From: Antedon mediterranea
Taxonomy: Eukaryota; Echinodermata; Crinoidea; Comatulida; Antedonidae
Direction: 5' to 3'
Length of the DNA stretch: 64,000 bases
NCBI RefSeq assembly: GCF_964355755.1
Contig: NC_092671.1
Coordinates: 37,837,304-37,901,303 of the forward strand
Shown here: in pieces, positions 18,501 through 56,195 of the stretch
Layout: each line of letters starts with the position of its first letter
Position numbering within the stretch: position 1 is the first letter of the stretch
Position numbers and translations under genes: made by a program
The notes under the pieces: model-generated
Database searches by the model: none
Told to the model about the DNA's origin: nothing
Seen by the model: only the letters and a program-made list of their open reading frames with translations

Positions 18501-18992
18501 TCATGACGTCATTTGATTGGATTTTCAAAAATATTATTTTTATCAAATACAGCATACATGATTATACTATAGTTCTTGAACGAAAACTGTTCTAATTGCT
18601 TTCGTTTTATCCAAGAAAAATGTATGTTTATCTATTTATCGTCGATCGTTATCGCCCTAGTGTAAATGGGCCTTTAAGCTCTGCCTACACTATCAAACTA
18701 GTTTGACAAAAAAATGTTTGATGTGCCCAAATTTGGTAGTGGAGACAGAGCTTTAAGAACACCACCACTAAAACGAAATTGTTTGCTATGAGTGCATGTA
18801 GATCATCTTATCTATTATTGCACTCATCAGTTGCCTTTAAGCAAAATTGTTTGTGAGATCTATCAAATAGTTGTTTTATCAATATATTAAATATATTACA
18901 TACAGCATGTAAGAGAACTATCAAGAAGGCAGTACGTTGTGAAAGCATTGATGCAGAAGGCACGTATTAAGGCTGGACTTACTCTGCTCTAG
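12583..18992 (+). CDS. TSG101: tumour susceptibility gene 101 protein (ESCRT-I subunit), complete, 11 coding exons
   Basis: ESCRT-I component that binds ubiquitinated cargo and PTAP-type motifs and drives multivesicular-body sorting and membrane abscission. Exons: 12583-12624, 12989-13073, 13405-13470, 13616-13779, 14244-14406, 14687-14890, 16943-17049, 17290-17382, 17629-17762, 18119-18221, 18906-18992; total 1248 bases, 415 residues, TAG stop. Residues 1 to about 140 form the UEV domain: GTIPVHYKG and YNIPVCIYVMDTHPYNPPM match the PTAP/ubiquitin-binding region, and where an active E2 has its cysteine this protein has Tyr (NGRIYLPYL), as expected for an inactive variant. About 145-242 is Pro/Tyr/Ser-rich, 243-340 a predicted coiled coil, and 345-415 the steadiness box (APLYKQLLNLFAEENAIEDT and a Lys/Arg-rich end). 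The start ATG lies 4 bases after a strong acceptor (TTTTTACAG), so the 5' UTR is spliced. Exon 7 contains an internal consensus donor (see findings). Family-A MITEs sit in introns 5 to 10. Confidence 0.97.
14058..14167. mobile_element. hairpin element related to 46441-46598
   Basis: Arms GGAATGGTACAAATAATTTT and AAATTATTTGTACCATTCC around a ~45-base loop. The flank 13920-13985 (TATATAACACCTA, TTCCTGTCATT, GTCACATG) matches 46660-46745 in reverse. TSG101 intron 4. Confidence 0.6.
14440..14607 (+). mobile_element. family-A MITE copy 12
   Basis: TAAACTCTGTCTACACTATC to GTGTAGACAGAGCTTTA. TSG101 intron 5. Confidence 0.9.
14985..15375 (+). mobile_element. tRNA-derived SINE, copy 2 with altered 5' part
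   Basis: Shares CAAGGGTTCGAGGCTCACTC and GGATAAGGACTATAAACC with the first copy. Its 5' part instead carries GTTATGTGGTAGGGTGGC, also found at 2495-2540. TSG101 intron 6. Confidence 0.75.
15621..15761 (+). mobile_element. family-A MITE copy 13
   Basis: Interior deletion near each end; right end GTGTAGACAGGGCTTA. TSG101 intron 6. Confidence 0.85.
16365..16855. repeat. 30-bp minisatellite of two 15-bp halves in TSG101 intron 6
   Basis: Alternating GATTGAAACATATTA and GACTGAAACCTAATT, about 16 double units. Its open frame (MFQSIRFQS) is a by-product of the 15-bp period. Confidence 0.93.
17097..17229 (-). mobile_element. family-A MITE copy 14
   Basis: TAAGCTCTGTCCACACTAAC to ATAGTGTAGACAGAGCTTT. 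TSG101 intron 7. Confidence 0.85.
17402..17530 (-). mobile_element. family-A MITE copy 15
   Basis: Begins about 20 bases after the donor of TSG101 exon 17290-17382; right end GATAGTGTAGATATAGCTTT. Confidence 0.85.
17782..17947 (+). mobile_element. family-A MITE copy 16
   Basis: Begins about 20 bases after the donor of TSG101 exon 17629-17762; both ends intact. Confidence 0.88.
18273..18676. mobile_element. 404-bp inverted-repeat element
   Basis: Ends TTTACACTAGGGCGATAACG and CGTTATCGCCCTAGTGTAAA are inverted repeats. A second inner pair (AATCAAATGACGTCATGA / TCATGACGTCATTTGATT) lies in the middle. It abuts a family-A MITE in TSG101 intron 10. Confidence 0.75.
18675..18755 (+). mobile_element. 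family-A MITE copy 17 (81 bp, internally deleted)
   Basis: TAAGCTCTGCCTACACTATC directly abuts the 404-bp element; right end GGAGACAGAGCTTTA. Confidence 0.8.
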
Positions 18993-20700
18993 GCTAGATG
19001 TTTACCTCTGGATATTGGAAGCTGCAGCTAACTTTTATTTGGCAATTACAAGACTCCAGCAGACTGATACAAGCCATCATCTTTTGTCTATTTCAGTTCT
19101 AATTTTTATGTACTTTTATTTGAATGTTCGCTCATTTCTTATTGAGTAACATTTTCTTTTTTGGAACTTTATCGATATCATTGTTTATGTTTCCATCTTT
19201 TATATTTGCACACGTTACACACTTAGATCCTAAATATCAAATACCAAAAAAGGTAATTTTATCTCAATGATTTATTTCTTATTTTATTTTGTTTTGGAAC
19301 AAATCTGAAACTCTGAAAAATATATGTTACTTTTCCATAGTTTGAAAAATAGGCAATTGCCTGCAATATCTATAAAAAAATCCTGTATAATGATATAATA
19401 ATTTGTGACTGCATATTACACTGATAAGATATTAATAGAAGACTAATTATGAAATTCAAAATTATACAAAGAATAGACTTTTTACTTTATTATACAAATA
19501 ATTTATTAATATGCACGAGGTTAGTCTTAATTCACTGTTATTAAAATAGCAGTGTGTACTATGATATATTATATTGTACATAATATGTAAATATGTGTTG
19601 GGTAAAGTGAATCATGTTTAAAATTATTAAATGTGGATACGTAAATAAACCAATTACTGTAACACGTCGTTGGGAGTTTAGAATTGAGATGAGACACCAT
19701 TTGGAATATCATAAGAACAGTGAAATTACAAATTATTGTAAATTACATTTTAATATATCACTCTTTCCTGGGAATACGTAGTACTTTGATGACTCTTTTA
19801 AGAAACAATTAAGTTATTATTGGAAATATTTCTTTAAAAAAACAAAATACAAAGAGCTGTTATCAATATTGCAGTAGGTTGCATAGTTCGTTTATAATTT
19901 AAGTAAAGTAAATTTAAATTTAAAGTAAATTTAAGTAAAGTACATAAAACATTGTCTTTACTATTATTCTCTTTCAAATTTACAAACATTTTAGTTTAAA
20001 TCATGGTAGGAGTGAATAGGGGAATTTTGTTTTAACTATTAAGGATCATATTTATGTTATTATTTTAATTAATTACATTTCAAATAAGAATAACATTCAT
20101 GATCGACGAGTTTAGTTATCGTAAAATTTGTTTTCATTTAATTTTACTTTTTTCCCTGTTGAGAAACATTTCCAAATATCAAATTAGGATATTTATTTAC
20201 ATATTATATTTATGCGAAATTGTTCCGTTTATATTATGTAAATTATAAATTCAAAAATCACGGGATAAATAACAATCTTAGAAATGTATTGATTGATGTT
20301 TTATTTATTTTAATTTCATTTCGATCAGACAGAAATTTCCAGGAAAATCTTATTCAGGCATAATGGTAATTTGATTTAGAAAATACAATTTAGCTTGGTT
20401 TCAATTGAGATAAATGACAAATAAATAATCAGAAGCTAAATTGGAAAACACTATTCCTTCGTCATGAGTAGCTTTATAATACCTATTTTCTCAAATCTTA
20501 ATTTACTATAAAACAAGTGCATTAAAATTTGAAATAAATTATGAAGTAGTAACAACGTTACATGTAAATTTTTGTTCTTTCCACAAATAACATTGAAGTG
20601 CGAGCATATAAAATAAAGAACAGAGAGTTTGAGCCATGGGTGATGTTCTTGAGCAACACGTGAGATCGTTATGAATCAAAATACCCGCGTTTGTATCTAC
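18993..20700 (+). other. TSG101 3' UTR and following AT-rich non-coding DNA
   Basis: No coding signal on either strand. Several AATAAA-type hexamers occur, for example at 19644-19649, so the TSG101 transcript probably ends in this stretch. No repeat family of the window is recognisable here. Confidence 0.4.
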
Positions 20701-21246
20701 GGCAGAAACTGTTCTGTGATTGGTTGATAATTTAAATCTAGTTCAGGCCGCCAAACTACCAATCAAGTTCTTGTCCGTTCTGCGTATAAAGAGTGTCACT
20801 CATACACGTGACATGTACCTACTTGTTCACCCACCACCTACTAACCCTGCTGTAGTCGTTTTCGGTCGTGTAGTAGTACTAGGCCTAGTAGTAGTAATAG
20901 AAAATGTTCCACAACAAAGTGTATATGTTTTGTGTGACATTCAAAACTTCTTTTACGTGACAAGAAGTATTTTTGCGAATTGCATGATCTGCATGCACGC
21001 AACATGAAGGCAAAATGAAAACTGCTAGCCCAGGCCTAAATCGAAGTCTAGGCCTGGGCGGGTGGGGATATAATCTAGATTGACACCATCTTAGCGCGTA
21101 TACGTAGACGACGACCCGGAAAGTGAGCAAGTTCGACATAGCATCGAAGAAGTAAGGATGGTAAGCTTATACAGTGTTTTTAACTCTTACTTTTGTTGAT
21201 TTTATATGAACAAATAGTAGGCCTAGTGGAATCTTTGTGATTTATT
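20700..21246. other. non-coding, slightly GC-richer stretch
   Basis: Contains a TATAAA at about 20786, several AGGCCT palindromes and, at 21158-21166, an ATG directly followed by a GTAAGC donor-like site. It could be a promoter with a first exon, but no downstream exon could be matched to it, so I do not call a gene. Confidence 0.2.
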
Positions 21247-22700
21247 AGGTTATATGCATGATATGCATATAACCTCTTGATTCTGTCAAAATCTTTATTT
21301 ATTTATTTATTTATTTATTTATTCTTTCCTTAGCACTATTTGTCCGTGAATTATCTTGGCATCAGTTTCATCTATCTAAGTCAATTTTTCAGAGTATATT
21401 CCTTATGGCCAGGAATCGATGTGGTTATGTTTTCACGATGCGCAATCAAAAATTACGCGGTCTACGCGCGATTTAACGAAATCACGTTTGTAATCATATC
21501 TTCACAAACATGAATCACTTTTAAACAAAATTTGGTACTCATAAATTTCAGGTCATATTTCATCATATGGCAATACAATTACGTGCGTAGCGCATATAAC
21601 GCATGCGTACGCGCGTTTAAAATGTTGAAAATTGTCAGAATTTATTTTCGATGAAATTAGAGTACGTTTCAGGCAATTTTAAGCGTTTAAAAAATTGCCA
21701 TGAGTGCGCAGATTTTTGCGTTAATGCGCACTGTTTGTGTCCGATTACTGTTGTATAACCTTTCTTTAATAATATCATCATATTTTATTCACTTTTCAGC
21801 GCGAAACAGCGTTATACGAGCACGTCAAAAGTGACGGGCTACGCAGGTGTAAGTTAACAAAATGGTGAAAATATGCTAAATTTTAAAATTAATATATATC
21901 GTTAGAATGCTCGGGAACACGTATTTTTTATTTAATTTTCTTGAAGTGTATGTATCATATGTATGATTTATTATGAAATTAGAAGAACAAAAGTTGATTA
22001 AGTCATCATTAATGGCATATTAAATTTAACAAAATTAATTTCGACAATCAAACAAATTATAACATTTTCTTAGGCCAAAATAACAAACTTAACGTTAACT
22101 TTCTTCCTTAAGAAGTTCATATATTAAAGTTAAAAGTATATAGTTTGACAGTGCATCATTTTTTTTAATTTTTAAAGATGCCATCATAGTAAAACATTAT
22201 AATTCATTGCGGTATGTAATAATCTATCTGCACCAAAGTGGTTACTGCATAGTAAATACAGGGAGGAATCTTTCCATAACTTTTAGTCAGTTGTGTATGG
22301 CTCGGTGGTCTTTGCTCGTGTCTATAGCATTCAAGTACCGAGATCGAGTCTCACCTGGGGAAACGAAACAAAATAAATTTTTTTTTATTATCCTTATTGT
22401 TTGTTCAAATTTATTTCTTAGTGTATAGATTATACACATGATTTATAATGAAATCTAGATAAAAATTAACTTATGTCTTTATTATTATGTAACAACAAAT
22501 GTGGTTTATGACATTATACGCATATGGATCTTTGATCGGATTGTGATACCGGCTATGGTGTTCGCGTTAGCAAGGTCCTATCATATATTATAAATAATTA
22601 AAGATTCTGAGAAAATCAATCAATCAATATATCTTTTAAAAATCAATTATCTTTATTTAAATCAATGCATATAACCTATAATTCGTCATAGTGACGAATT
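21247..22700. mobile_element. 1.45-kb non-autonomous element, copy G1
   Basis: One end is the hairpin AGGTTATATGCATGATATGC (21247-21275); the other is ATGCATATAACCT followed by the palindrome ATTCGTCATAGTGACGAAT. Inverted relative to copy G2 at 46861-48483. Contains an (ATTT)n run at about 21298-21325. Confidence 0.55.
22290..22375 (+). mobile_element. tRNA-like (SINE-like) segment
   Basis: TGGCTCGGTGGTCTTTGC resembles an A box region and GATCGAGTCTC a B box. Inside element G1. Stems do not pair fully, so no tRNA gene is called. Confidence 0.35.
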
Positions 22701-23168
22701 AAATCTAGTTAATATTTTAATATTCATAGTTAGGAACAATATGTTCAATAAGTTCAATAGCTAATACAGGGCCTAGCTAGGCCTATCATTTATTTTAATA
22801 TAATATCAATTGTCCTAACATTTCCCAATACAGTTAGTTTGTACTGTGACGACACAAGAAGAGTGTAATAAAAGGTACTACATATTATTAAAACAAAATA
22901 CTTTAACAAAAATGGTGTTTGCACTTTTTTACTTCATTACTAATGTTTTTATTTACTTTCATGACATTTTATATACGTTGAAAACAAATTGCACAATTAT
23001 TACAAAAAAAGAGGAGGAAAATGTGGGAATGTGGCGTAATAGGCTAATCATGACGTCACACAGTATTCCTATACGCATCATCAGTAGGCCTAACGTCACG
23101 TATATTACGCATAACTAAAAAACAGCCAGCGTAATTGTGTGCATCACTGCTATACGCGGTTGGTGTGG

Positions 23169-25214
23169 TTACGGAAGCTTGAACGTGACACTTTTTTCTG
23201 ATTTTTGCCCTAATGATGTATTATATTGAACTTTCGTTTCATTATGAGTTGTTTTATCGAAACTATCATGAGATGTGTCTTTTATATCTTCATTTGTATT
23301 ATGTTCAGTGGCCATATGTTCATAGACCGTATGTTCATTGGCCGTATGTTCATTGGCCGTATGTTCATTGTGTTCATCGTTGTTGTTATCGCCATTCGGG
23401 TTTTTGAATAGAGTTTGTTCGGATGCAACTACTTGTTTATTATTGTCTATGAATTCGTCATGTTCGGTTATAGTTTGTACAGGCATGCAGTTAGAATTCT
23501 GAAATTGCTCGTTTTGAACTACTGTGTCATTAATGACGTCATCATTACGAACTTTTGTTTCTTGCGATTTTTTCTTTGATTTGGTAGATTTGTTCTTGTT
23601 CCCATCATTGCTACCTGTTACTTTTAACGACCCGTTAGGTGCTTTAATATGAGGTGTTTTCAAAGATCCCAGTTTCCTTGGTGCTCGTCTTGATGGCATC
23701 GTAAACGGGAAGACCTGATCGGCTTCATTAGATGTCTGATCAAACACCCGTAGTTGTATAAAGGTGCTCATTGGTATCATGGCTTGTTTACTTCTCTCGT
23801 TTGTCTCATATGAGTACGTTTGTTTCTGTTTCTTACTCTCTCCTCCTGATCCTGCATCGGCGGTTGTCCATTCTCTTCGGATTGTTGGCATATTTCCTCG
23901 TGGAATATCAGTATACAGGTTTTCATGTTGAAAATTGATATCAATTACAGACATTTCTTTGTGTAAACGCACTGTAGTCTGTGTTTGTCTGGAATCGTGA
24001 AGTTCGCGCTTTTGTAGATTCGAATGGTTGTTTCTAACAACATACGGTTGTTCTTCTTTTATGTAAACACCATGTGTCGTGGAGTATCTCCTTGACGTGT
24101 CTGAGATCCCGTTCGGCGCGTCCATTAACGACAGCAAGAACGTCTTGATATGTTGTCTATCTGTTGTTGGTTTACTTGATGTCATTCCCAAATTATATCC
24201 ATTATGTTGTGTTTCATCTCCCGTCTGTTTGTCTGTCTTTTCCTCTAATGTACTTGTTGAATCCCCATTTGATTGAGCTTTTTCTAAATGTGTTCTTGCA
24301 ATACCATTTCGAGTGTTTCCATGTTTTAGTTTTTGCTTTGTCTGTTGTTTTAAGTTGTGTACTTGTCTTAAAGCAGCTGGACTGGACAAAGATAACTGAC
24401 TTAGGATACGGTTCTTTGTTTTTAAACTACTCAATGGTAAACTGCGGTGCACGTAGGACTCCAAATCGGTAATTTTTATTGCCTTATTTTTAGGATGTTT
24501 ATTGAGGCGTAACTCCTCTTTCCAGTTGTCCGTCGAGCCATTCATTCTTTTGCCCATTTTATGAATCCAGTTTCCAACAAATTCAATATTTGCGTCGTCT
24601 GCTGGCTTTGATCGGATCTTCGGCAGTAAAATTGTGTTGCCATGTTCGTCGAATGTCACCACCTTCTGGCGATTGGCTGGTAAAGGACGTTTTGATTTTG
24701 GTTTAAGCATTTTCCCACAATCCTTAACACCACCATGACTTGGTATATCAGAAATCATGATATGAGGCAGACCATTATGCCTACTTTCTTTAGTCAGGTT
24801 TACTGGAGATTTTCTACTTGGACTTTTTGATGTTCGATACATTTCAATCGCATCCGATTCTAAATCAGTGAATTCAACAGACCTGTTTTGAAGTTTTGTA
24901 TTTGAAACCAGTTCATGGTTATGTTCATTTTTACCATTTCCCGTCTTTTCTAACTGCCTTTCTCGTCGAATAATTTCATCACTTTGCGAAGAACTCTGTT
25001 TGTTTTCCATATGTGCCTGTTGCATCAGTTTCACGAGTTCACGATGCGAGTCCGCAAGATACCACTGGCGAGGATTTGTCAAGTCCTGCATTATGCTTTC
25101 ATGAGGTCGAGTAAGAATATCGCGAGGGCTAACCATGGCATTCGTTACTGAATCATTGAGGTCTTGCTGTAAAGACTTTTGCAACGTCGCTGTATACTGT
25201 TTTAATGACTCCAT
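23169..25214 (-). CDS. uncharacterised low-complexity protein, 681 residues, intronless coding region
   Basis: I do not recognise this protein. It is hydrophilic, rich in Lys, Asn, Ser, Thr and His, with no signal peptide or membrane segment, and is probably largely disordered. It holds three RVxF-like motifs, the docking signature for protein phosphatase 1: RSVEF (111-115), KVVTF (184-188) and KSVTF (674-678, three residues from the end). TDLES occurs twice (116-120 and about 249-253), each time in a similar context. Near the C-terminus is a short tandem repeat built on NEHTA/YEHMATEH. The first Met is preceded, 11 bases upstream, by an acceptor-like tract (ATCCTTTCAAG), which fixes the start and implies a spliced 5' UTR. 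Length of the open frame (2 kb in AT-rich DNA) and even composition argue that it is real. A phosphatase-regulator role is inference only. Confidence 0.75.
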   Translation of the reverse strand: MESLKQYTATLQKSLQQDLNDSVTNAMVSPRDILTRPHESIMQDLTNPRQWYLADSHRELVKLMQQAHMENKQSSSQSDEIIRRERQLEKTGNGKNEHNHELVSNTKLQNRSVEFTDLESDAIEMYRTSKSPSRKSPVNLTKESRHNGLPHIMISDIPSHGGVKDCGKMLKPKSKRPLPANRQKVVTFDEHGNTILLPKIRSKPADDANIEFVGNWIHKMGKRMNGSTDNWKEELRLNKHPKNKAIKITDLESYVHRSLPLSSLKTKNRILSQLSLSSPAALRQVHNLKQQTKQKLKHGNTRNGIARTHLEKAQSNGDSTSTLEEKTDKQTGDETQHNGYNLGMTSSKPTTDRQHIKTFLLSLMDAPNGISDTSRRYSTTHGVYIKEEQPYVVRNNHSNLQKRELHDSRQTQTTVRLHKEMSVIDINFQHENLYTDIPRGNMPTIRREWTTADAGSGGESKKQKQTYSYETNERSKQAMIPMSTFIQLRVFDQTSNEADQVFPFTMPSRRAPRKLGSLKTPHIKAPNGSLKVTGSNDGNKNKSTKSKKKSQETKVRNDDVINDTVVQNEQFQNSNCMPVQTITEHDEFIDNNKQVVASEQTLFKNPNGDNNNDEHNEHTANEHTANEHTVYEHMATEHNTNEDIKDTSHDSFDKTTHNETKVQYNTSLGQKSEKSVTFKLP

Positions 25215-26990
25215 TTTAAAACGAACTTGAAAGGATAATGCAGTTGTTTACCCGGTGAGGTAATCTATACCTTAACTCCTGTGGAAGCAACAATAGTAAC
25301 TATTAGAAGAAAGATCTGTTGACGCTTATGTAAACAAAATCTTTAGAATTTGGAACTTACTATGCTATTTCAAAACAGACTATAAGGCCTTCAATAGATG
25401 TTTTCCAGCAGTGATATTATTGTGAAGTGCTATGTTATCTCATTCCATCTTTAACAAGTAGTTTTCTAGTTAAATTAGCCTAAACAGTACGAGGCCATTA
25501 TCTAAATTTGGAAAATTACATTAAGATGTAAAGAAGCCTTGAAATAAGAATTAAATAATTTATCAATAAACGTATAGAAATGATCCTAATTGGATTTACA
25601 AGGACATTAATACAATCATATCTGATGATATTAATAGCACCAATTTTGATAACGACATGTAGGCCTAACACTTCTTGCTGTCTCTAATTGAAATACATGT
25701 ATCTTTGACATACATTGTCTAAAAGTATTGGTATGCCAGACTTAAATATAGGTTAGTTTAGTTGGTGTGCTTAGTTGTTCGTAACCCGTTGTTTTACTCA
25801 TACACTGTTATACATTCAACAAATTGTGAACAAAATAAAATTTCGTTTTTATTGTCTGGAAAAAGTGTGAGTAAGATTCCACAATGGTCATAGATTTGGT
25901 TGAATAATCAAGGCATGAACGTTCTGAATCAAACTTCGCGGATGGTACGACTCTGTAGGCCTAGGTAGAAATAATAATTATATAGGCCTATATAATAATG
26001 GACGAATTATTATTACATTCATTCCTACCCTTGTTTGTCGCAATATACAGCAGTAAGCAAATCACGGGACCTACGCATAACATATACTCTTATAGGCCTA
26101 GTAAAATTAACACCAATTAATAGTTCTTACCTCAGAAGAGGAACCTCTTGCCAGCTACAATTATTAGTTAACTTCAGCAGTCTGGACCTCAGACCCACTC
26201 AATGAGTTTGATAAACAAGTTGTTACTTAAATAATCGATTCTTCTGATTAGATTTTACAAGTCATATCCAGTGAATCCGCGTGTTTGCGTTGACATCGTT
26301 ACACACGTTAATCAGTTTTTTTTCTTCATAAAGGATATCAGCAAACGAGGAATGAATCTTTGGTTGATTCCATTTGTTGATCGGGTGGTCCATTTATAAT
26401 ATTAAAGAGTTATTTAAACGGTAATTTGCATTCATACAGCAAACCATAACCAAACAATATAACTCACTTCGTTCATCCTGTTTATTCGGTTGCTAAGGAA
26501 ACGCTATAGGTGTACTACAAAGCTTTCAAAAATTGTTAAAAGTTAATGTGTTATTAAGGATATTTTCAAAAATCAGACGACAATACGATGTTTAATAAAC
26601 CTTATATTATCGCTCTTTAATGAGAAGTTAAAAATAGTTCTAGGTCATTACGGTAGTTAAAGTACATACTAATCAGTTTTTACACGTTTTGTTCAAATGT
26701 CAATTTTGTAGCCTAGCTACGAATGACAATTTAAAAATCACCCCGTGTAAATAAAGTGCAATATCTTCATTTTCCGCACTGCGCATTGGACAAAGAAAGA
26801 AAACAACAATACATATAGCCTAACTTTTTTCAAAATGACATATTTAAAGTTTGAGTTTATCATCTTTAGTTTATATATTTTGGGGGACAGTACATCTTTC
26901 ATCCATAGTCTCCCAACGTAGATCTAGATATCGAGCAAAAGAGCAGGTCATATCCGACATAATCTTTATGAGGCTATGATCGTGTCCGTT
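25215..26990. other. non-coding DNA upstream of the 681-residue gene
   Basis: Presumably holds the 5' UTR exon and promoter of the minus-strand gene, which I cannot locate. Many AGGCCT palindromes occur. A 5'-truncated family-F MITE remnant ends near 26900. No coding signal seen. Confidence 0.3.
26833..26900 (+). mobile_element. family-F MITE, right-end remnant
   Basis: Matches only the right-hand end of the 541-823 element (AATGNCATATTTAAAGT and the terminal GGGGGACAGTACATCTTT). The left part is missing. Confidence 0.5.
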
Positions 26991-26994
26991 TAGT

Positions 26995-27190
26995 GGTAGA
27001 AGACAAATAGATTTGATTTGATTTGAATTGAATTTATTAGGAAAATCATCATAAAAAATACACATACAAAGTGATAACATAAATTACGGACATTAAAAAT
27101 AATACATTTATAACAGATTTTCCAGGATAGCCCAAAAAGCTTATTAGCTTATTTCCATTGGGATCCTTTTACAACCGTGTTGCAAGAGAT
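26995..27190 (-). mobile_element. 3' end of a non-LTR-type retroelement, copy 1
   Basis: Read on the minus strand, a short open end HGCKRIPMEIS-stop is followed by a 3' UTR and a tail of AATTC/AAATC-type simple repeats near 27000-27035. This layout is usual for LINE-like elements truncated at the 5' side. No reverse transcriptase remains. Confidence 0.4.
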
Positions 27191-27394
27191 ATCAACCAAC
27201 TTTATTGATGACCTAGCATATCAAATGAAGAACTGTTGCGTGGCATGGTAAACTCCATCCGGATGAGTCCGCTTGATGACATCTTAGTTTTATTAGGTCT
27301 ATTACTAAGAAACTAATCACGTGCCATAATTATTAATGTCGTTTTAACCTACGCATTTGTACCCGGGCTTGTTTGGCTTGAGGATGTGATTTGA

Positions 27395-27545
27395 TTTTGA
27401 TTTTTTTTATATCAGTATAAAAATACACACAAAGTGATAACATAAATCCTAAATACATTTAGAAAAGATTTTCAAGGATAACCCCATGAAAAACTTATAT
27501 TAGCTTAAATTTCCGTTGCGATCTTTTAGCGCCATCTGTCACGTC
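27395..27545 (-). mobile_element. 3' end of the same retroelement family, copy 2
   Basis: Shares TACACA-CAAAGTGATAACATAAAT, AAGATTTTCAAGGATA and TTAGCTTAA.TTTCC with copy 1, in the same orientation, with small indels. The tail lies at about 27395-27412. Confidence 0.4.
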
Positions 27546-27559
27546 TACCCAGCCAAATA

Positions 27560-28867
27560 GACCCAGACAGATTGGCCATTTGTATAAATATCAACCACTA
27601 TATTAATTATTTTGCTACTTAATTTTGAAATATACCCATCCGGGAAGATATAATATTTAAAATGTATGAATTTAAAACTATTTAGACTTAGACAACCACC
27701 AACCATTATTTAAATACAGCATGAGATTGGCCGCACAATTTTGTATCTTCAAGCCTCAAAATTACTTAATTAAAATTCTGGAGTAAGATGCAGTTTATGT
27801 CTTTCTATGTATGGGAATTGCTATGTGTTATTGTATAAGTCTAATAGTTGGCCTATTGTGTGTAACGCCCATGTTTGTGACAGAACGATTAGAGCTGACG
27901 CGTTTTGACTTTAGGTGGAAATTCCCTGACCCTAAAATAGATTGTATCCGGCACACGTGTCTCCATTGTTGCATTACGCATCCATGCTTGACTGTCATTG
28001 TCACTGGATTTTCTGTTGGGCTTGCACGTCTCATATCCTAGGCCTAAATGGTATCGATGATTTGGTAAGGTAAGCGTAATTAGGGTGTATTATTGATTCG
28101 AAAATAAATGTGTGCTTTTAGGAGCACACATAAACGCACATGTTCGGTCGGTTGTGTGATTTGAGAGGGACAAGAAAAGTGTGCCATTAGGCCTAGCTGG
28201 AAGGAGGCGGCTGAAATAACTGGCGTTAGTTTTATAATATGCTGTAACATGTCATTGTCATGATTTAAATGAATACATTGTAAATATTCATCAAGAGGGA
28301 GAGCTGTGTGTAAACGTTGCGTTTAATTCGTGATTACTTTCTTTCTTCTACGTCTTCCCGTGGAAATTCCCAACCAATTGTGATGATGATTAATATCTGT
28401 ACCCCGGATAAGTAAGTTATTTCTTCATGATAAACAGACTAACAAAAATTCAAACACTATTGGTGAGCATAACAAATTCGAATCAACGTGTTTCCTTTCA
28501 ATTCAAGTAGTTTTCGTTAAAGCATAACATAATATAAGCTATGGATTGGTATACATAGTTAGGTGTAGGCCTAACATAAATATTGTGGCAATCGCAACAT
28601 TATTTATTAAAACCGGAAACCATAACTTACCCTATTCCGGAATTGGAGAAATTGGCATGTAGCCTATTATTTTGAACGTTACATTATAGCTATACTTCGT
28701 ATGACAGTACTTCTTTCGGTTTCGATATGAAAGCGTGTCAAGATTTACCGTGTGATCTCGTTTCGTGCATGTTTAGCAATTGACTATTAAGATTGTAGAT
28801 ATGGATGTTATATTAAACATTTATAACATGAACCACCATTAAAACCATCAAACATTGTTAATTCCAG
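27560..28867. other. non-coding DNA upstream of the ankyrin/death-domain gene
   Basis: Expected to contain the promoter and untranslated first exon of the downstream gene. No open frame of substance and no recognisable repeat. The stretch ends in an acceptor-like site (TTGTTAATTCCAG) at 28867. Confidence 0.3.
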
Positions 28868-28875
28868 GAATTAAA

Positions 28876-31800
28876 ATGGGAAAAAACTTGTCAAGGCAAC
28901 TTTTAAGTGCAATCGAGAATGGCGAATTGTGTATTGAGCTGCAAGATGCTCTGAGGGACAAAGATTATAAAACTGTTTTTGATGTGCTCCTTAGCAATAA
29001 CAGTTACAGTGATGACAAAAGTCTATACATAAGCCTTGTTCTACACTTCTGTATCAAATGCAAATTTCGCCAACAAATACAAGTTTTGCTTAAAAAAACT
29101 AGTAAACATTTACAGAAATGTCACTTGAATAGTCTATGTATGCTGGCTTCTGAAGAGGGTTGTTTGTCATCGGTCCGAGTATTGTGCGATTATGGTGCTA
29201 ATATCAACGCATTGTCACCCAATAGCTACACGGCATTAGCATATGCCGTAAAATATAAACACTCAGACATTACAGCATTTCTATTATCAAACGGAGCCGA
29301 CTGTAATGTAACTGACGATCATAAGAATACTGCGTTAATCCACGCAATTGGGAACAGAAATGATGCTTCCACTGTATCTCTTATTCTGGATAACAAAGCC
29401 GATGTGTCTGTGTGTAATGTGCGTAATAGGAATGCCCTATTTTATGCAGTATACGAAAATATGATTGAAGTAGTGAGAATGCTGTTAGCACGTGGGGCAA
29501 ATGTTAATTCGGCTGACGACCAAGGTACCACCGCTTTAATGGTGTCGTCATTTCATGGCTACGTGCATATTACTGAAGTTTTGGTATCTAAAGGAGCTTA
29601 CGTGGAGATGGAAGATAACGAAGGCTTTTCGGCTCTCATATGCGCTGTACAAAACAAGCAATACTCAGTTATCCAACCGTTAGTTACGCACTACAGTATA
29701 ATGAAGTCTCGAAATACTCATATCATGCAGGCACTGAAATATGCCGTTGAAAACGATTCAAGTAAAACCGTTAAGATACTATTGGACGTTTACAATTCGA
29801 TCACTAATCCACAATTGATACAATTACTGACATTAGCTTTAGAACATGCATCTGGAAAAGACGTCGTGAAGTCTGTGGTCAGTCAATTCAAAGATTTATT
29901 GTTTTATGCAGCTTCAAATCCCAGACATGAAGCCGTTTTAAAGTTGTTGATTGATAATGAAATTCCTATGGACTATTTTGATAGTCAGGGTAACTCTGTG
30001 TTAATATATGCTGTTGCCAGAGGTAGTTTAACCATGTTAAATGATCTCTTGCGTGCAAATGTTTCTGATATCAAAACGAAAAATCTGTATCAACAAGATG
30101 CCCTCTTATTCTCTGTGTCTGTCGACGACGTTGCCAAAGCAGAAGCACTGATAAGATGTAATGCCGATGTTAATTCTGTAGAAGAAAATGGATACACGCC
30201 GTTGATGTGTGCCACGCTGCGTGGTTCGATTGCCATGTGCCAGTTACTTATGAGACACGGTGCTGACGTCAACATGGAAGAAGTGGAAGGTTTCACCGCG
30301 TTGATGGCTGCTTCTCAAAACAACCACGTTGAAGTAGTCAAGGAGCTGTTAGTTCATGAAGTAGAAGTACAGAAGAAGAATGTATACGGGCACGATGCGT
30401 TATTCAAAGCGGTACAAAATAACAATCATGAGGTAGTTTCAGTACTTCTTCAGCACGGAGCGTCTGTAAATTCAGTCGATAATTGTGGAAACACACCGTT
30501 AATTGAAAGTTGTAGAGTCAGTGGGTCTATTACAACACTCAAAATGTTACTGGATGCAGGTGCAGATGTGAACGACCCAGGGGAATACAAGTTGACTGCT
30601 GTAATGTGGGCCTGCAAGACTGGCTCAACTGAAATTACTAAATTGTTGCTGTCACATGGTGCCAATCTCGAACTCATAGACGATTCCAGCCGTGATGCCT
30701 TTCATATAGCAGTATATCACGGCCATTTTGACATTGCAGAAATTATTCTTCAACAATCCAGAGAATGTCTTGATAGGAAAGACAATCGTTCAAACACACC
30801 ACTCATCACAGCATGTTACAGAGAAAACGTCGAATGTGTAAAAATGTTGCTTCAAAATGGAGCATCCATTCAGTCGGTCAACAAAAAAGGTTACACAGCA
30901 ATAATGTTTGCAATACAGCTAGGAAACGATCGTTTAGTGAAGATGTTGTTAGACGAATTGAATTATCTGTATGAAATCGGAATGTGTACAGATTCCGACT
31001 ATCAGTCGCATACTGACAATCCGTTCACTAACGGAATCAACCTGATTTCGTTCGCAGCATACAAGGAGCAGCATCATCTTATTCGCATGCTTTCTTTCAG
31101 TAAGAATGATAGAAAACACATTTTCGTACACCAAAGTGAAAATTATGTCGACGTTTACGCATGTGCAGGGTTGTCGGAAAACGCAGAAGTATTGAAAAAT
31201 GTTTTATACAACGATCCGAACGTCTTGTGTAGACCAGTTAAAATTGATCAACTGGTAACAGCTTTTGAGGACAGCTGCGCCGCGAATGACATTGAATCTT
31301 TAGTTGAACTCGATCGTACTTCAAATATCAAAATGTTGCCAGTACTTAAAGCTGTTGGGTGTGCTGCCGCAAAAAGAGATTCCATCAGAATAGTGAGAGC
31401 ACTATTGCAGTTACCAAACTGTAGAAATGATGAGAAATTTATCAGTTTAATAATGTTAATTTCTTGTCTGTATGGGAGTGAAAGTGTGATGACGTTATTG
31501 GTGAAAATGTCAGCTAATGTCAACATATCATTTGCTCCTCGTTGCGAGACACCACTTGCTGTCGCACTGATGTTTAGACCGGACAACGTTACAAACATCA
31601 TTTCAATTTTGGCACCAGTTAGTGATCTTAGCAAATGCTTCTCACTTGCTATCAGTGACCAGTATCCAGTGGATGTAACCATTCTGATGTTTGCTAGTTT
31701 GACGGGCAACATTGCTGCTGTTTCTAGTCTTCTCGAACATGGAGCTTCTGTTGATCAAACAACCGTTTTCGGGTTAGGCGCTGTCCACTTTTGCTTATTT

Positions 31801-33126
31801 GGACGAAGAGGAATGAAATGTCCTGAAAGTAATTCTCATGAAGTGGATTCAGTTGTGTCCTCAAATTCGCTCCTGAAGTCTTCATTGAATTCACGTAGTT
31901 GGTCTGAAGACGAATTTAAGGGAATATATTGTGATATATTAGAAATGTTAATGGCGAAATGCAGTGATATCACTGAAATGCGTACTGAGGATGGAATCAA
32001 TCTAATATCCTGGGCTCAACACTTCAATTTGGAAGATTGTGTTAAAGTAATACTGAAATACCATCATGACAGCCGTCTACATGTTGATCAGTTGTCACCT
32101 GCAGATAAATTTCATGAAATGATCCCAGCTATTGTGAGTCAAATGATGGGTTTGCTTAAACACATAGACTGCAATAACAAGCCGGGTCTATATGATCAGC
32201 AGTATAGTTTTGCTGAAAGACTATCAGAAACGTGCAGCACACTGACAGATGCCATGGAGAATATTAATAATATGGACGAGCCATTTAGCTTTTTTGAAAG
32301 TCTTGTTGACGCCGACGATGTACCAGAAAAGTTACCAACAGACCTAGACAGCTTTATAGTTACTCCGTTTGGTCTTTACAAGCTTGCAGAAAAAATCGAA
32401 GCTGAAAATTGTTTAAACAAGGTGGCAACGTTTCTTGGTGTCACATGTAATAAAATAATCGTCACCCAAGAAGAAAACAAGAATGATAACATTGAGGCGT
32501 CTTATCAAATTCTGCGTTATTGGTACGAATCATTAACAACTGGTGACAGGCGTAGAGTTTTTAGCTTACTTTCAGACGCATTGAACAAATCGGGGTTAAA
32601 TGAAATTGCACGTGACCTGGGTGAACTATTTACAGAAAGAAGACAGTTGTCATCATACAAGAGGATGAAAAGGAAATGTAAATATAGATTAAGAAGAAAG
32701 AGTGAAAGCGAGTTACACAAGAATTTACACAGGCTGGAAGAAAGTTTGGAGTTGCCTGACGTCTTTGAGAATGAACCTCGAACTAATACTGGAATTGATC
32801 AACGCAAACCTATCAAAGTAATCGGAGAGTCCGTAACAAATGACAAATTATTTGTTGAACTTACAGCAGGACATGAACAGACGATTTTAAAAAACAGGGC
32901 TAAATTATCAGTTAACCTTGCTCTCGAAGATGTAGATTTGAAGGCGGTCGAACGTAGATGTAATAATAAACCATCTTTATTTGCAGTCGAACTCCTACGG
33001 AAATGGTTGTTTAAATGGGGAGGAGGTGCAACAGTGAATCGTTTAATCTTGGCATTTAAAGACTCCGGACTCCACGACGTCACTAACAACATTAAGCTTA
33101 TTGGGGGAGCCTACTCTACTCTGTAG
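28876..33126 (+). CDS. ankyrin-repeat protein with two C-terminal death domains, 1416 residues, intronless coding region
   Basis: Begins MGKNLSRQLL; the ATG lies 8 bases after an acceptor-like AG (28867), so an upstream non-coding exon is likely. About 17-18 ankyrin repeats fill residues ~85-700, with another near 940-975; consensus pieces such as GYTPLMCA and LLMRHGADVN are clear. Repeats are organised in larger blocks of about 99 residues (see findings). Residues ~1160-1250 fit a death domain (LYKLAEKI, VATFLGV, ILRYWYESL, GLNEIARDL). A basic linker (KRMKRKCKYRLRRK) follows, and residues ~1316-1406 form a second, more diverged death domain (LLRKWLFKWGGGATVNRLILAF). No kinase, NACHT or membrane segment. 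Death-fold domains mediate assembly of apoptotic or immune signalling complexes and ankyrin stacks bind partners, so a scaffold role in such signalling is likely but inferred. The lack of introns contrasts with the carboxylase and TSG101 genes and suggests an old retrocopy. The stop codon falls in the first unit of a minisatellite. Confidence 0.88.
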   Translation: MGKNLSRQLLSAIENGELCIELQDALRDKDYKTVFDVLLSNNSYSDDKSLYISLVLHFCIKCKFRQQIQVLLKKTSKHLQKCHLNSLCMLASEEGCLSSVRVLCDYGANINALSPNSYTALAYAVKYKHSDITAFLLSNGADCNVTDDHKNTALIHAIGNRNDASTVSLILDNKADVSVCNVRNRNALFYAVYENMIEVVRMLLARGANVNSADDQGTTALMVSSFHGYVHITEVLVSKGAYVEMEDNEGFSALICAVQNKQYSVIQPLVTHYSIMKSRNTHIMQALKYAVENDSSKTVKILLDVYNSITNPQLIQLLTLALEHASGKDVVKSVVSQFKDLLFYAASNPRHEAVLKLLIDNEIPMDYFDSQGNSVLIYAVARGSLTMLNDLLRANVSDIKTKNLYQQDALLFSVSVDDVAKAEALIRCNADVNSVEENGYTPLMCATLRGSIAMCQLLMRHGADVNMEEVEGFTALMAASQNNHVEVVKELLVHEVEVQKKNVYGHDALFKAVQNNNHEVVSVLLQHGASVNSVDNCGNTPLIESCRVSGSITTLKMLLDAGADVNDPGEYKLTAVMWACKTGSTEITKLLLSHGANLELIDDSSRDAFHIAVYHGHFDIAEIILQQSRECLDRKDNRSNTPLITACYRENVECVKMLLQNGASIQSVNKKGYTAIMFAIQLGNDRLVKMLLDELNYLYEIGMCTDSDYQSHTDNPFTNGINLISFAAYKEQHHLIRMLSFSKNDRKHIFVHQSENYVDVYACAGLSENAEVLKNVLYNDPNVLCRPVKIDQLVTAFEDSCAANDIESLVELDRTSNIKMLPVLKAVGCAAAKRDSIRIVRALLQLPNCRNDEKFISLIMLISCLYGSESVMTLLVKMSANVNISFAPRCETPLAVALMFRPDNVTNIISILAPVSDLSKCFSLAISDQYPVDVTILMFASLTGNIAAVSSLLEHGASVDQTTVFGLGAVHFCLFGRRGMKCPESNSHEVDSVVSSNSLLKSSLNSRSWSEDEFKGIYCDILEMLMAKCSDITEMRTEDGINLISWAQHFNLEDCVKVILKYHHDSRLHVDQLSPADKFHEMIPAIVSQMMGLLKHIDCNNKPGLYDQQYSFAERLSETCSTLTDAMENINNMDEPFSFFESLVDADDVPEKLPTDLDSFIVTPFGLYKLAEKIEAENCLNKVATFLGVTCNKIIVTQEENKNDNIEASYQILRYWYESLTTGDRRRVFSLLSDALNKSGLNEIARDLGELFTERRQLSSYKRMKRKCKYRLRRKSESELHKNLHRLEESLELPDVFENEPRTNTGIDQRKPIKVIGESVTNDKLFVELTAGHEQTILKNRAKLSVNLALEDVDLKAVERRCNNKPSLFAVELLRKWLFKWGGGATVNRLILAFKDSGLHDVTNNIKLIGGAYSTL

Positions 33127-34025
33127 ACTAAATCAGGAGAACTCGCTCTGTACCATCAGGGAAACTTGATCTACCATCAGTAAAACGTGCTCTACTATGT
33201 AGACCTAATCGAGGGAACTTGCTCTACCATCATGGAAGCTTACTCTACTCTGTAGACCTAATCAGTGAAACTTGCTCTACCATCAGAGAAGCTTGCTCTA
33301 CTCTGTAGACCTGATCAGGGGAACTTGCTCTACCATCAGAGAAGCTTGCTCTACTCTGTAGACCTGATCAGGGGAACTTGCTTTATTATCGGAGAAGCTT
33401 GCTCTACTCTGTAGACCTGATCAGGGGGAACTTGCTCTATTATCGGGGAAGCTTGCTCTACTCTGTAGACCAGATCAAGGGAACTTGCTCTACCATCAGG
33501 GAAGCTTGCTCTACTCTGTAGACCTAATCAGAGGAACTTGCTCTACCATCAGGTGAGCTTGCTGTAGAACTGTACCATCAGGGAAGCTTGCTCTACTCTG
33601 TATACCTGATAAGGGGAACTCGCTGTACTATCAGGTGAGCTTGCTGTAAAACTAATCAGGGAAACTCGCTGCGCCATCAGGAGCTTGCTGTAGAACTAAT
33701 CAGGGGAACTCGCTGCACCATCAGGAGCTTGCTGTAGACCACATAATCAGGGGAACTCGCTGCACCATCAGCAGCTTGCTGTAGACCTAATGAGGAGAAC
33801 TCGCTGCACCATCAGGAACTTGCTCTACTCTGTAGACCTGATCTGAGGAAGTCGCTGTACCATAAGGAACGCTTGCCTACCCTGTAGACCTGATGAGGGG
33901 AACTCGCTGTACCATCAGGGGAGTTTGCTGTAGACCTAACCAGGGGAACTCGCTCTACTATCAGGAAAGCTTGCTCTATACTCTGTAGACCTGATCAGGG
34001 GAACTCGCTTTACCGTCAGGCAAGG
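33104..34025 (+). repeat. 53-bp minisatellite starting inside the last codons of the ankyrin/death-domain gene
   Basis: Tandem units of 53 bases in the best-conserved part (33288 to 33341 and on), each made of two related halves containing AGCTTGCTCTAC and AACTTGCTCTACC, with CTCTGTAGACCTGATCAGG between. Units degrade and shorten towards the right. The first unit overlaps the coding region and supplies its TAG. Confidence 0.9.
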
Positions 34026-35494: not shown

Positions 35495-36976
35495 TTATAC
35501 TATGTCTGTAATTCCAGGGAGGAAAATGTGAATCGATTTAGTGTTCTCCGTGCAGTCGTCACTAACGATCGGTGAGCTCGTGGTGGCACTGTACGAGGAG
35601 TCTACAGAGTCTCGCCAGCCAATCGGGGTGTTGGCTGGTGTGTATGGCTCACACTCCTCAACATGATAAAATGAATGTACTAGTTGTTCGGTAACGTTAT
35701 CTTCTAAGTCACTCATTAAAGAATTTTCTCTCGTAGTTTTACTTGTTTTCATTTGTAACCGAGCAATATTAGGTGTCTGGTTTTTGGCGCCCGCGCGGTA
35801 TAGTCTCGGTAATCCAGACTCTTGCTGATGGTGCTTTCCATTGCCTCCATTCCAGTCGTTTACGCTTAATTCGTAAGGTTGTAATAGACCTCTTTTAAAT
35901 GCTATCGTAGCTGCTGTCCGAGGGCTTGTTCTACCCGGTGAATATTCTCCCCAGCTTGCATAAGGTTCGTATGAATTGGAGCATATTTCATCAAGAAATA
36001 GCGGAACGCAGTGAGGGGGGACACGTTTATGAATCGAATGTCTACATTCATCATGTATGTCGTCTGTTCGATGCGTTTTCAAATCGTGATCATTTCCTGT
36101 GAATTTGGTTTTCCGGTAACTTTTAGCTTGCGAGTTTAAGATATTTAGACGCTGTCTTTGTTGCGTCACACGCTCGTTTCTTAAGTTTGAATTTGTTACC
36201 GAATAAGAAGAGACCGTACTCGGATGTTTCAAATTATTGTCCGGAAAAATCCGAGGTTCGTTCGATCGTCTGTTCGGTTGTGATCTCGTCATCATTGTAA
36301 ACCCGAGTTTTGAATCGGTTCGTAATTGTCGATGTCGAGTGCCATTTTTAGATGATTTTGGAAGTTTATATAAAGGTACTGTTTGTCTTGGATTGCTTGT
36401 CTTTTTATGTGTGTTTTGAACATCATCTTGTTTTGACGTCATGCCCTCGTTTTCATCTAATTTAATGTTAACCATCTTCATTATATTGTACATGTTTAAC
36501 TTATCAGGATCTTGTACGCTTATGACGTCATCATTTACACTTCTATTATCCTGATGCGTTAAAGCAGGTTCTGTTGCGCGCGCTGATTCTGTTTTGGACT
36601 TTTCTGTATCAGTTTTAATTGGACTATTCGTAATGTTTTCTCCAGCATACTTTCTCATTTCATTTGTATTTTCTCCGTTTCCGTCGTCGCTCATAACAAG
36701 GTGTTCAATATGTTCAAACCTCTTTCTAAAACTGTTCTGTCTATCTTTGAGTGAACCCATATACCGTACACCTGAACCAATGGGAAGGCTGCTTCGTGTA
36801 ACTGCCAACACTGGATACTGTCGTTCGCTCGAGTATCCGAGCGCCTTCTGTGATGTTAGATCTGTGATTATGCATGAGTTATGTCCATCTACGCCTTCCA
36901 TTGGTTGTTGTTGAATGCTGGTAATTTGCATTGCGGGACAATTTATTGATGATTTTAAGGCGAAACACGTTGACAT
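35495..36976 (-). CDS. uncharacterised Ser/Thr/Asn-rich protein, 493 residues, intronless coding region
   Basis: I do not recognise it. I start at MSTCFALKSS because a good acceptor (TTTTCATGTTTACGTTTCAG) ends 9 bases before that ATG; the frame stays open further upstream into the intron, which I take as chance. The sequence is hydrophilic and probably disordered for its first 300 residues. The C-terminal third is less biased (VPPHCVPLFLDEICSNSYEP, SWGEYSPGRTSPRTAATIAF, HSFYHVEECEPYTPANTPIG) and may contain a conserved segment. No transmembrane segment, no zinc-binding pattern, and unlike its three minus-strand counterparts no RVxF motif. It shares with them strand, single coding exon and composition, but I see no convincing sequence homology. 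Confidence 0.72.
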   Translation of the reverse strand: MSTCFALKSSINCPAMQITSIQQQPMEGVDGHNSCIITDLTSQKALGYSSERQYPVLAVTRSSLPIGSGVRYMGSLKDRQNSFRKRFEHIEHLVMSDDGNGENTNEMRKYAGENITNSPIKTDTEKSKTESARATEPALTHQDNRSVNDDVISVQDPDKLNMYNIMKMVNIKLDENEGMTSKQDDVQNTHKKTSNPRQTVPLYKLPKSSKNGTRHRQLRTDSKLGFTMMTRSQPNRRSNEPRIFPDNNLKHPSTVSSYSVTNSNLRNERVTQQRQRLNILNSQAKSYRKTKFTGNDHDLKTHRTDDIHDECRHSIHKRVPPHCVPLFLDEICSNSYEPYASWGEYSPGRTSPRTAATIAFKRGLLQPYELSVNDWNGGNGKHHQQESGLPRLYRAGAKNQTPNIARLQMKTSKTTRENSLMSDLEDNVTEQLVHSFYHVEECEPYTPANTPIGWRDSVDSSYSATTSSPIVSDDCTENTKSIHIFLPGITDIV

Positions 36977-37040
36977 GTTATTGCTCTGAAACGTAAACAT
37001 GAAAATATTAGAATAAAAAAACATGCGTGTTGTTTTCCGT

Positions 37041-37234
37041 AAAGCGTGGTTCCCACTGGCGGCGTAACGTAACGCAACCTACGCAACGTAAGAAAATGCC
37101 CTTCCAATAATTGTGTGAAATCAAACCTACGATGTTCTGCAGCACTATTGGGTCGTCGGTTCCCACTTTTGATTACGCAATACATCACGTTGTGTCGATA
37201 CGTTACGTTGCGTTCTTTTAGGAACCACGCTTTA
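37041..37234. mobile_element. family-B MITE, diverged copy 2
   Basis: Ends AAAGCGTGGTTCCCACTGGC and AGGAACCACGCTTTA. More diverged internally than the other two copies. It lies in the presumed first intron of the 493-residue gene, 65 bp upstream of the acceptor. Confidence 0.7.
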
Positions 37235-37794: not shown

Positions 37795-38285
37795 CTCGTC
37801 GCCTCGTGAAATACAGTACTCGATAAAACCTCGTCACATAATCCATATAACATTGCCACATACTTGATAAAACCTCGTCACATACTCGATAAGACCTCGT
37901 CACATACTCGACAAAACCTCGTCACATACTCGATAAAACCTCGTCACATACTCGATAAAACCTCGTCACATACTCGATAAAACCTCGTCACATACTCGAT
38001 AAAACCTCGTCACATACTCGATAAAGCCTCGTCGCTTCGTCACATACTCGATAAAGCCTCTTCGCTTCGTCACATACTCGATACAACCTCGTCACATACT
38101 CGATACAACCTCGTCACATACTCGATAAAGCCTCGTCGCTTCGTCACATACTCGATAAAGCCTCTTCGCTTCGTCACATACTCGATAAAACCTCGTCACA
38201 TTCTCCATACAACCTTACCATATAGGCCTACTAGATAAACCTCATCACATACTCGAGAAAATCTCGTCACATACTCGATCACACA
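37795..38285 (+). repeat. 22-bp minisatellite
   Basis: About 20 units of CATACTCGATAAAACCTCGT-CA type. A variant block carrying GATAAAGCCTCGTCGCTTCG and GATAAAGCCTCTTCGCTTCG occurs twice in the same order (from about 38012 and from about 38117), so part of the array was itself duplicated. Confidence 0.9.
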
Positions 38286-41930: not shown

Positions 41931-42951
41931 CTCTCGAATTTGTCAACTCCACTCCCTAAACTTCAAATGAGATTTAGTTTATAAGCACGATACATGATAA
42001 AATCCATCCTGTAATTGGTGAGTGTGTGCACGCTGTTGGATGCGTATGAATTTTTTTTTTAAAGAAAAGGTAATGGTAACGGCCAAAAATTGTATTATTT
42101 CGTTTAAAAAGTGAATTCCCTCATTATATTGACTACTTCTAATGCACTATATTTAGCCAGGTTTTATTTGTCTTGATTTTAAAATATTTTAATGAAAATT
42201 ATTTCAAACCAATAAAAAACAAAGCAATATGGCTGTGTCGCGCGTGCTCAAATTTGAGTTATTGTTTACCGACCGACATAGTGAGCTGTAGAGTCGCGTT
42301 TGCGACTAAAAACCCCGTTATAATACCAGATAAAGGAAGATGCTGTTTTTATTGTTGCGAAATTAATTGAACACAATAAATTTTATTCGTTTAGAAAATT
42401 AACTTTTTTAATATCTTCCTGAAATATGTAACATCTGAGTCCATAGTGCATAGAGACTATATGTATTATGCGATATACAAATTTACAACCATTAACCATT
42501 AAATAAAGTCGCCTCAATCCATACTTTAACTCGTGACTGTGTTGACTATTTGGCACCAACGGCCGCCCATAATGCTATGTTACCGAAGTTAATATTTAGC
42601 ATATTAAACATTGCCAATGTATATAATATTAACCCTATGGACATAATCGCCAACTCATTATTTTAACAGATGATGATGGAATAAACTTCGTTTATCAATG
42701 CGATAGGATCAAAACACGTGTAAATTTATCTAGTAATAACCATACCTATCTAGATAACAACATCGTATTATCTTTATTTCAAATAAGTTTCACTAAAAAT
42801 ATTTGCAAATCAACGCCATATTATGCATGGTAAATATAATTAGTTAATATTTGTGAAGAGCAGCGGTAATTTCGTTTCCATAAATGAATTTAGGCTTAAT
42901 CAGGGGCAGATTTAATGGACATCCCTAAATGTCGCAAATTGTACTGCAAAA

Positions 42952-43782
42952 GATAGGACAATCAATTTAAGCTCAGCCCCTCATTTCAGGCCCTGCCACC
43001 ATGCAAAAGATAGGACATCAATTTAAGCTCAGCCCCTCATTTCAGGCCCTGCCACCATGCAAAAGATAGGACATCAATTTAAGCTCAGCCCCTCATTTCA
43101 TGCCCTGCCACCATGCAAAAGATAGGACATCAATTTAAGCTCAGCCCCTCATGTCAGGCCCTGCCACCATGCAAAAGATAGGATATCAATTTAAGCTCAG
43201 CCCCTCATTTTAGGCCCTGCCACCATGCAAAAGATAGGACATCAATTTAAGCTCAGCCCCTCATTTCAGGCCCTGCCACCATGCAAAAGATAGGACATCA
43301 ATTTAAGCTCAGCCCTCATTTCAGGCCCTGCCACCATGCAATAGATAGGACATCAATTTAAGCTCAGCCCTCATTTCAGGCCCTGCCACCATGTAAAAGA
43401 TAGGACATCAATTTAAGCTCAGCCGCTCATTTCAGGCCCTGCCACCATGCAAAAGATAGGATATCAATTTAAGCTCAGCCCCTCATTTTAGGCCCTGCCA
43501 CCATGCAAAAGATAGGACATCAATTTAAGCTCAGCCCCTCATTTCAGGCCCTGCCACCATGCAAAAGATAGGACATCAATTTAAGCTCAGCCCTCATTTC
43601 AGGCCCTGCCACCATGCAATAGATAGGACATCAATTTAAGCTCAGCCCTCATTTCAGGCCCTGCCACCATGTAAAAGATAGGACATCAATTTAAGCTCAG
43701 CCGCTCATTTCAGGCCCTGCCACCATGCAAAAGATAGGACATCAATTTAAGCTCAGCCCCTCATTTTAGGCCCTGCCACCCC
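42952..43782 (+). repeat. 56-bp minisatellite with a 278-bp higher-order unit
   Basis: About 15 units containing AAGATAGGACATCAATTTAA, GCTCAGCCCCTCATTTCAGG and CCCTGCCACCATG. Five consecutive units with their private variants (GGATATC, CATTTTAGG, GCAATAG, GTAAAAG, GCCGCTC) recur in order from 43181 and from 43459. The array ends in a run of 14-15 C. Confidence 0.93.
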
Positions 43783-43987
43783 CCCCCCCCCCTATTTAAA
43801 ATCCTCTGAGGTCCCTTAAAAGTTCCCTTAACTATTCAGTACCTTGGTTGTGCTGACGATTCTGTATGTGCGAGTACTATGCCTACTTGTAGATGGCCCC
43901 AGTCTAGGCTAGGTAGAGATGCTAGGCCCCCCTGTTGTTCTGCCCACTAACCAGCCTAGGATTCATATGTTTGGTTTGAGAGCATCA

Positions 43988-48670: not shown

Positions 48671-48758
48671 AATGTAAATGTAGGCCGGTAGATAATGTGT
48701 AATGGCGTACTGTAATTAAAGTATGTGGGTTAGACCTCGGAGTTACAAGTAACATACG

Positions 48759-48923
48759 TAAAGCTCTGTCTGCACTATCAAACTTTATGTGACAACAAAT
48801 GTGATGTGCCCATATATGGACATGATGATGTCATATCACTACCATATTTAAGCATATCACTACCGTATTTGGGCACATCACACTTTTTTGTCAAACTAGT
48901 TTAATAGTGTGGACAGACCTTTA
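48759..48923 (-). mobile_element. family-A MITE copy 23
   Basis: TAAAGCTCTGTCTGCACTAT to ATAGTGTGGACAGACCTTTA. Confidence 0.88.
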
Positions 48924-49272
48924 TATAAAGTATGATTCAAGTTTATTAACATTCAATAGGCAGGCTATTTTCTGTTTTCACTCGCGATCGAAAAATGACA
49001 ATTCTAAATACAGTATTTATTTCGTATAGAATAAATTATGGATATGCCTATATTTACAGTGTTTTATTGATAAATAAAATCGATTAAAATATAATATAAT
49101 TATGTAATTCATGTCCTCATAACTTCGTATTACTTATTGTTTTTTTAAGGGTCTCGGCTTAAAAGCTTTGCTTATTTTCAGTTTCTATTTCCATAACTTA
49201 TTTTGATTATATAGGCCTATATTTGTACATATCCTTAGTTTTATGGAATAAATTGATTTAGATTGATTGTAT

Positions 49273-50664: not shown

Positions 50665-51384
50665 GCTTTTTCCTGAAAATAAACAACAATAATTAACATA
50701 AGAATCAGAATTAATAACAATAATGTGGAGAGTCGATAATGTTCAATGTAATTATTGACATTTCGTCAGCACGTGACAAGCACAAACAGGTTTCATTACG
50801 AAATAAAAATCCACACCATTGTCGCACCTTGATTCTCATACAAGCTAGTGTAAAGATAATATATTGTCCCCCTAACAAAATAATGTTGTTAATTTTTTTT
50901 TAATATGCCATTTTAATGTCACGTAATAGTTATTGACTTAAAAAAAACAGGATCGAAAAGAAAAATTATTTTCCTGAAAAAAAATACCTGTCTGTCAGAC
51001 AATGTTTTTTTTTTTTAAATTGTATTCATGTTTTTTTAACGAAATAAATAAAGATTGAATTGAATTTAAATTAACTCACTACCCGTTTTAATGTCGTGCA
51101 TACAATTCGTATAATTGCCATGCTCTTTGTACCGAAATATAAATTCTTGATTGACAATAATGTTTGTTTTAGAAATAAATTGCATTAAACAATAGACAAT
51201 TAAAGCAGAATTCAATTAAAACTATTGTACTAATGAGCTTTGGCCGTAATTAAACATTATAAATTCTTTTATCAGGTCTAACTGTCGTTTATTCATTTTG
51301 GGCATAAGAAAGAAGAAGATCAATAAGAAGATCAATATCAAGTTCAGATATTCGGGAACGGATACCGGTATCGGGCTGCGTAAG
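50665..51384. other. upstream non-coding DNA of the 463-residue gene
   Basis: Holds the presumed 5' UTR intron and a truncated family-F MITE (50852-51010). A LINE-like tail (AATAAATAAAGATTGAATTG) lies at about 51045-51065. Confidence 0.3.
50852..51010 (+). mobile_element. family-F MITE, 3'-truncated copy
   Basis: Left end AATATATTGTCCCCCTAAC and interior CTGTCTGTCAGACAATG are present; the right end is lost near a LINE-like tail. Confidence 0.55.
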
Positions 51385-56170: not shown

Positions 56171-56195
56171 AAAAAAGAATTGAAGAACTTTTCGT

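Follow-up and report, generated by a model that had tools for sequence, protein, structure and literature searches.

Several described protein families join ankyrin repeats to a death domain. ANKDD1A and ANKDD1B have no enzyme domain and end in a death domain that follows their ankyrin repeats. A death domain is likewise found in the classical ankyrins, which nevertheless serve the membrane skeleton as adaptors; its presence thus need not imply a role in death or immune signalling. Among invertebrates, lineage-specific TRADD-N proteins combine one to three death-like domains with ankyrin repeats in genomes with expanded repertoires (PMC8195603), and amphioxus is noted for novel combinations of death domains (PMC2575513); a survey of human proteins names no tandem of two death domains (PMC8564539). 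The gene analysed here, from the crinoid Antedon mediterranea, places two dissimilar death domains behind one long ankyrin stack.

The window, by which we mean the whole 64,000-nucleotide stretch of DNA analysed, corresponds to C2:37837304-37901303 of a 354 Mb assembly in 18 contigs, in which no COX1 match was found. One intact frame of 1,416 codons runs from ATG to TAG on its forward strand, exactly where the original prediction had placed it (Table 1), and, given the base composition of the frame, the chance of a stop-free run over 1,415 codons is ~10^-44. The ankyrin-death-death gene is an intact animal gene with its coding frame in one long exon. With ~20 distinct ankyrin frames of at least 400 aa in this genome, a single ankyrin exon of large size is nothing exceptional.

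Table 1. The ankyrin-death-death gene and its immediate flanks, in window positions.
Feature	Position	Strand	Basis or remark
Possible splice-acceptor AG, 8 bases 5' of the ATG	28866..28867	+	sequence; would end a 5'-UTR intron or follow an upstream coding exon
Coding frame, 1416 aa	28876..33126	+	ATG to TAG
Main ankyrin stack, residues 83-703, ~18 repeats	29122..30984	+	Pfam and repeat profile
Degenerate ankyrin-like group, residues ~830-964	31363..31767	+	repeat profile; ends with a strong repeat at 933-964, 40.8 bits
Death domain 1 (DD1), residues 1167-1248	32374..32619	+	Pfam PF00531; 29.4 bits with own-genome profile
Basic linker, residues 1255-1277, RRQLSSYKRMKRKCKYRLRRKSE	32638..32706	+	between DD1 and DD2
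Death domain 2 (DD2), residues ~1343-1407	32902..33096	+	Pfam 23.9 bits against a cut-off of 22.6; 19.9 bits with own-genome profile
Minisatellite, 53- and 44-bp units	33105..34021	+	opens within the final seven codons of the gene; the stop codon belongs to it

In the 1416-aa protein, Pfam finds ankyrin stretches, which number 7-14 depending on the model, and Death, and no Rel homology, ZU5 or other domain besides these. A repeat profile that began as a general consensus and was then refined with this protein gives 13 repeats of at least 36 bits and eight that are weaker or partial. When the main stack is counted in the 33-residue register it comes to about 18 repeats, and the 17-18 originally proposed are a fair description of it; with such an array of ~33-residue units, the protein belongs among the ankyrin repeat proteins. 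The solved structures closest to the stack are ankyrin-1/-2 and designed ankyrin proteins, matches that are generic and are expected from any long ankyrin array.

Pfam Death (PF00531) scores 41.7 bits across two stretches of the whole protein, and the best of these, DD1, spans positions 4-82 of the 86 in the model. DD1 lies above the curated cut-off of the family, and by sequence comparison its assignment is secure. When the C-terminal 117 aa containing DD2 are scanned alone they pass the same model marginally, over positions 20-83. An independent profile, for which 22 death domains were taken from other genes of this genome and DD1 and DD2 were left out, recognises both domains (Table 1), and 200 shuffles of DD2 score at most 4.1 bits against it. 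The DD2 match to this profile covers positions 15-78; its first helix is unrecognised and a tryptophan common in that region is missing. DD2 is divergent, and its binding might have been lost. A family profile of the death domains of the genome that includes DD1 and DD2 matches the death domains of FADD, THOC1, RIPK1, ankyrin and PIDD among solved structures; the C-terminus searched against solved structures as a single sequence gives no death-domain match. AlphaFold2 run without an alignment returned a mean pLDDT of 36 for residues 1050-1416 and of 48.7 for DD2 alone, a confidence too low to use. Because structure prediction was uninformative, the six-helix death fold predicted for DD1 and DD2 rests on homology.

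The two death domains align poorly with MAFFT and match each other little better than shuffled sequences do (z 1.9), and their best matches in the genome sample differ, being L003 and L021 for DD1 and L001 and L020 for DD2. Given this low score and these different best partners, DD1 and DD2 do not look like the products of a recent tandem duplication. The architecture first read from the letters, an ankyrin stack with two different death domains separated by a basic linker, is thus supported by Pfam, by the own-genome profile, by the dissimilarity of DD1 and DD2, and by the linker itself.

The expanded death-fold repertoire invoked in the original prediction is present in this genome, which holds at least 149 Death and at least 103 NACHT matches; the two death domains of the window are not among the matches listed. 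Of the 149 listed death-domain matches, 56 form 25 clusters (same strand, within 2.5 kb); random placement would give ~0.1 pairs, and local gene duplication contributes to this clustering. In large arrays at C3:19-26 Mb (+) and C5:12-14.5 Mb (-), genes in which two or three death-domain exons follow one another recur many times with near-equal scores, and L007 has four successive death-domain exons on one strand and is probably a poly-death-domain gene. NACHT-bearing open frames reach 3,822 aa, and giant single-exon NACHT-LRR frames lie at C7:6877000-6886900 (L069) and C4:35118000-35127900 (L070). The GT29 sialyltransferase family is also very large genome-wide, forming clusters on C9 (6.9-7.2 Mb) and at 20.8 Mb of C7, and a family of this size suggests a deuterostome. 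Together with the death-fold and NLR expansion it agrees with an invertebrate deuterostome, though it is no proof of an echinoderm or amphioxus.

A search of the rest of the genome with the C-terminal 267 residues gives nothing significant (best E 0.08), and the whole protein matches other genes through its ankyrin repeats only, at 24-43% identity. Among the genes so matched is a second single-exon gene, L041 (C3:38808562-38811051), which lies on another chromosome and encodes ankyrin repeats followed by two terminal death domains. L041 thus shares with the window gene its single exon and its order of ankyrin stack and two death domains, but at 821 aa it is shorter, and its own two death domains are alike (z 11.5) whereas those of the window gene are dissimilar. 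The paralogue search suggested at the outset therefore yields a second gene of the same build and no close paralogue, and the statement that tandem death domains after an ankyrin stack are uncommon is too strong inside a genome that has this second gene and in which tandem death-domain exons are common. In so death-domain-rich a setting, and with L041 present, the window gene is less surprising. With L041, the ankyrin-death-death build counts at least two instances of origin or retention, and the likeness of its two death domains makes an independent doubling in the two genes possible; the window gene and L041 may have doubled their death domains separately. A death-domain tree, with 15 of 21 inner branches open, supports neither a shared nor a separate origin of the two ankyrin-death-death genes.

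The gene had been called intronless, which is shown for the coding frame only: an acceptor-like AG lies just 5' of its start codon, and the frame reads through this AG without a stop as far back as 28843. This AG could be the acceptor of a 5'-UTR intron. It would also suit a longer protein, with more N-terminal domains, of which this frame is one large exon, internal or last, a reading compatible with the scaffold function proposed below. We regard a longer protein as unlikely, because no forward-strand frame in 20000-28870 is coding-like by the codon use of this gene (best 5.1, against 11.9 for DD2), a weak test in that other coding frames of the window also score low, and because L041 likewise begins just past a likely acceptor, as a 5'-UTR intron would have it. 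In L041 this is a pyrimidine-rich CAG shortly 5' of the ATG, a clearer acceptor than the AG of the window gene.

We propose, with a probability of roughly 55%, that the window gene encodes a large cytosolic scaffold or adaptor of an apoptosis or innate-immune pathway. Its ankyrin stack would bind one or more partner proteins, and DD1 and DD2, two subtypes split by the basic linker, would dock homotypically onto two different death-domain partners. The docked partners would thereby be brought or kept together for apoptosis or innate-immune signalling (NF-kappaB-type), a scheme in which we infer cytosolic location, partners, pathway and direction of effect alike. Support for a scaffold comes from the domain content, with no Rel homology, ZU5 or other domain present, from the dissimilarity of DD1 and DD2 and their different best matches, from the same domain order in L041, and from the match of the death-domain family profile to FADD, RIPK1, THOC1, ankyrin and PIDD. 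The divergence of DD2 and the example of the classical ankyrins count against it. A more specific proposal is doubtful, namely that the gene belongs to a class of ankyrin receptors or scaffolds that is specific to its lineage and emerged repeatedly in this genome, with two dissimilar death domains that bridge two separate death-fold pathways.

Ankyrin repeats followed by a death domain are also the layout of the C-terminus of p105 and p100, and an inhibitor resembling IkappaB or the C-terminal half of p105, p100 or Relish would have candidate clients at the Rel loci on C10, C6 and C7. In such an inhibitor a Rel protein would be kept cytosolic by the ankyrins, with the death domains receiving the signal for its release. 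That role seems improbable for a protein with about three times the repeat number of IkappaB and two death domains, and with no Rel domain in it or near the window; a fusion of NF-kappaB type was rejected on this absence of a Rel domain. The scaffold proposed here must also be weighed against an adaptor of the membrane skeleton or of trafficking, on the pattern of the classical ankyrins, whose death domains would be structural or regulatory. The best solved-structure matches of the stack and the match of the death-domain family profile to ankyrin death domains would both agree with such an adaptor, but the former are of the generic kind described above and Pfam finds neither of the ankyrin-defining modules, ZU5 and UPA, which makes this quite unlikely.

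A pseudogene or unexpressed retrocopy whose frame is still open would fit the single exon and the locus-specific minisatellite that extends into the last codons, for which no second site was found in the genome, but it is very improbable for a run of 1,416 stop-free codons to which the genome offers no parent gene, the best ankyrin match reaching 32% identity. A viral or prokaryotic origin was rejected, there being no related locus in the viral or prokaryotic collection.

Elsewhere in the window lie four long single-exon frames on the reverse strand (23169-25247, 35495-37078, 49273-50742 and 56196-57419) that have no Pfam match above cut-off and are mutually dissimilar. A dispersed repeat of ~130-190 bp has CTCTGTCTACACTATCAAACT ends and occurs in both orientations (for example 2972-3104, 17429-17538, 48743-48931 and 56021-56181); it resembles a short non-autonomous transposon. 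Further tandem arrays (15/30 bp, 22 bp and 55/56 bp) and a 203-bp near-palindrome are found at 16303-16765, 37817-38279, 42922-43836 and 18269-18679.

Set beside the known systems, the window protein is like ANKDD1A and ANKDD1B by domain order, with ankyrins, then a C-terminal death domain and no enzyme domain, but those proteins are much shorter and are characterised by a single C-terminal death domain where this one has two. With ANK1, ANK2 and ANK3 it shares a long N-terminal ankyrin stack and a C-terminal death domain; the ZU5-ZU5-UPA unit that lies between the two in classical ankyrins has no Pfam match here, and the death domain is again doubled. The C-terminal halves of p105, p100 and Relish likewise have ankyrin repeats with a death domain next, but the N-terminal Rel homology domain that marks p105 and p100 is missing from the window protein, which has many more repeats and two death domains. 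The TRADD-N proteins resemble it in joining several death-superfamily domains to ankyrin repeats, but in the reverse order, with the death-like/TRADD-N unit N-terminal and the ankyrins C-terminal (PMC8195603), and TRADD-N itself has no match in the window protein. Both the order of ankyrins and then death domain and the combination of multiple death-like domains with ankyrins in invertebrates are thus of an already known kind, and what remains unusual is the joining of one long ankyrin stack to two dissimilar death domains in a gene with no close paralogue. With death-death tandems so common, two of them after ankyrin stacks, this genome would be a place to ask what is gained by a second, different death domain, be it a second partner or cooperative assembly.
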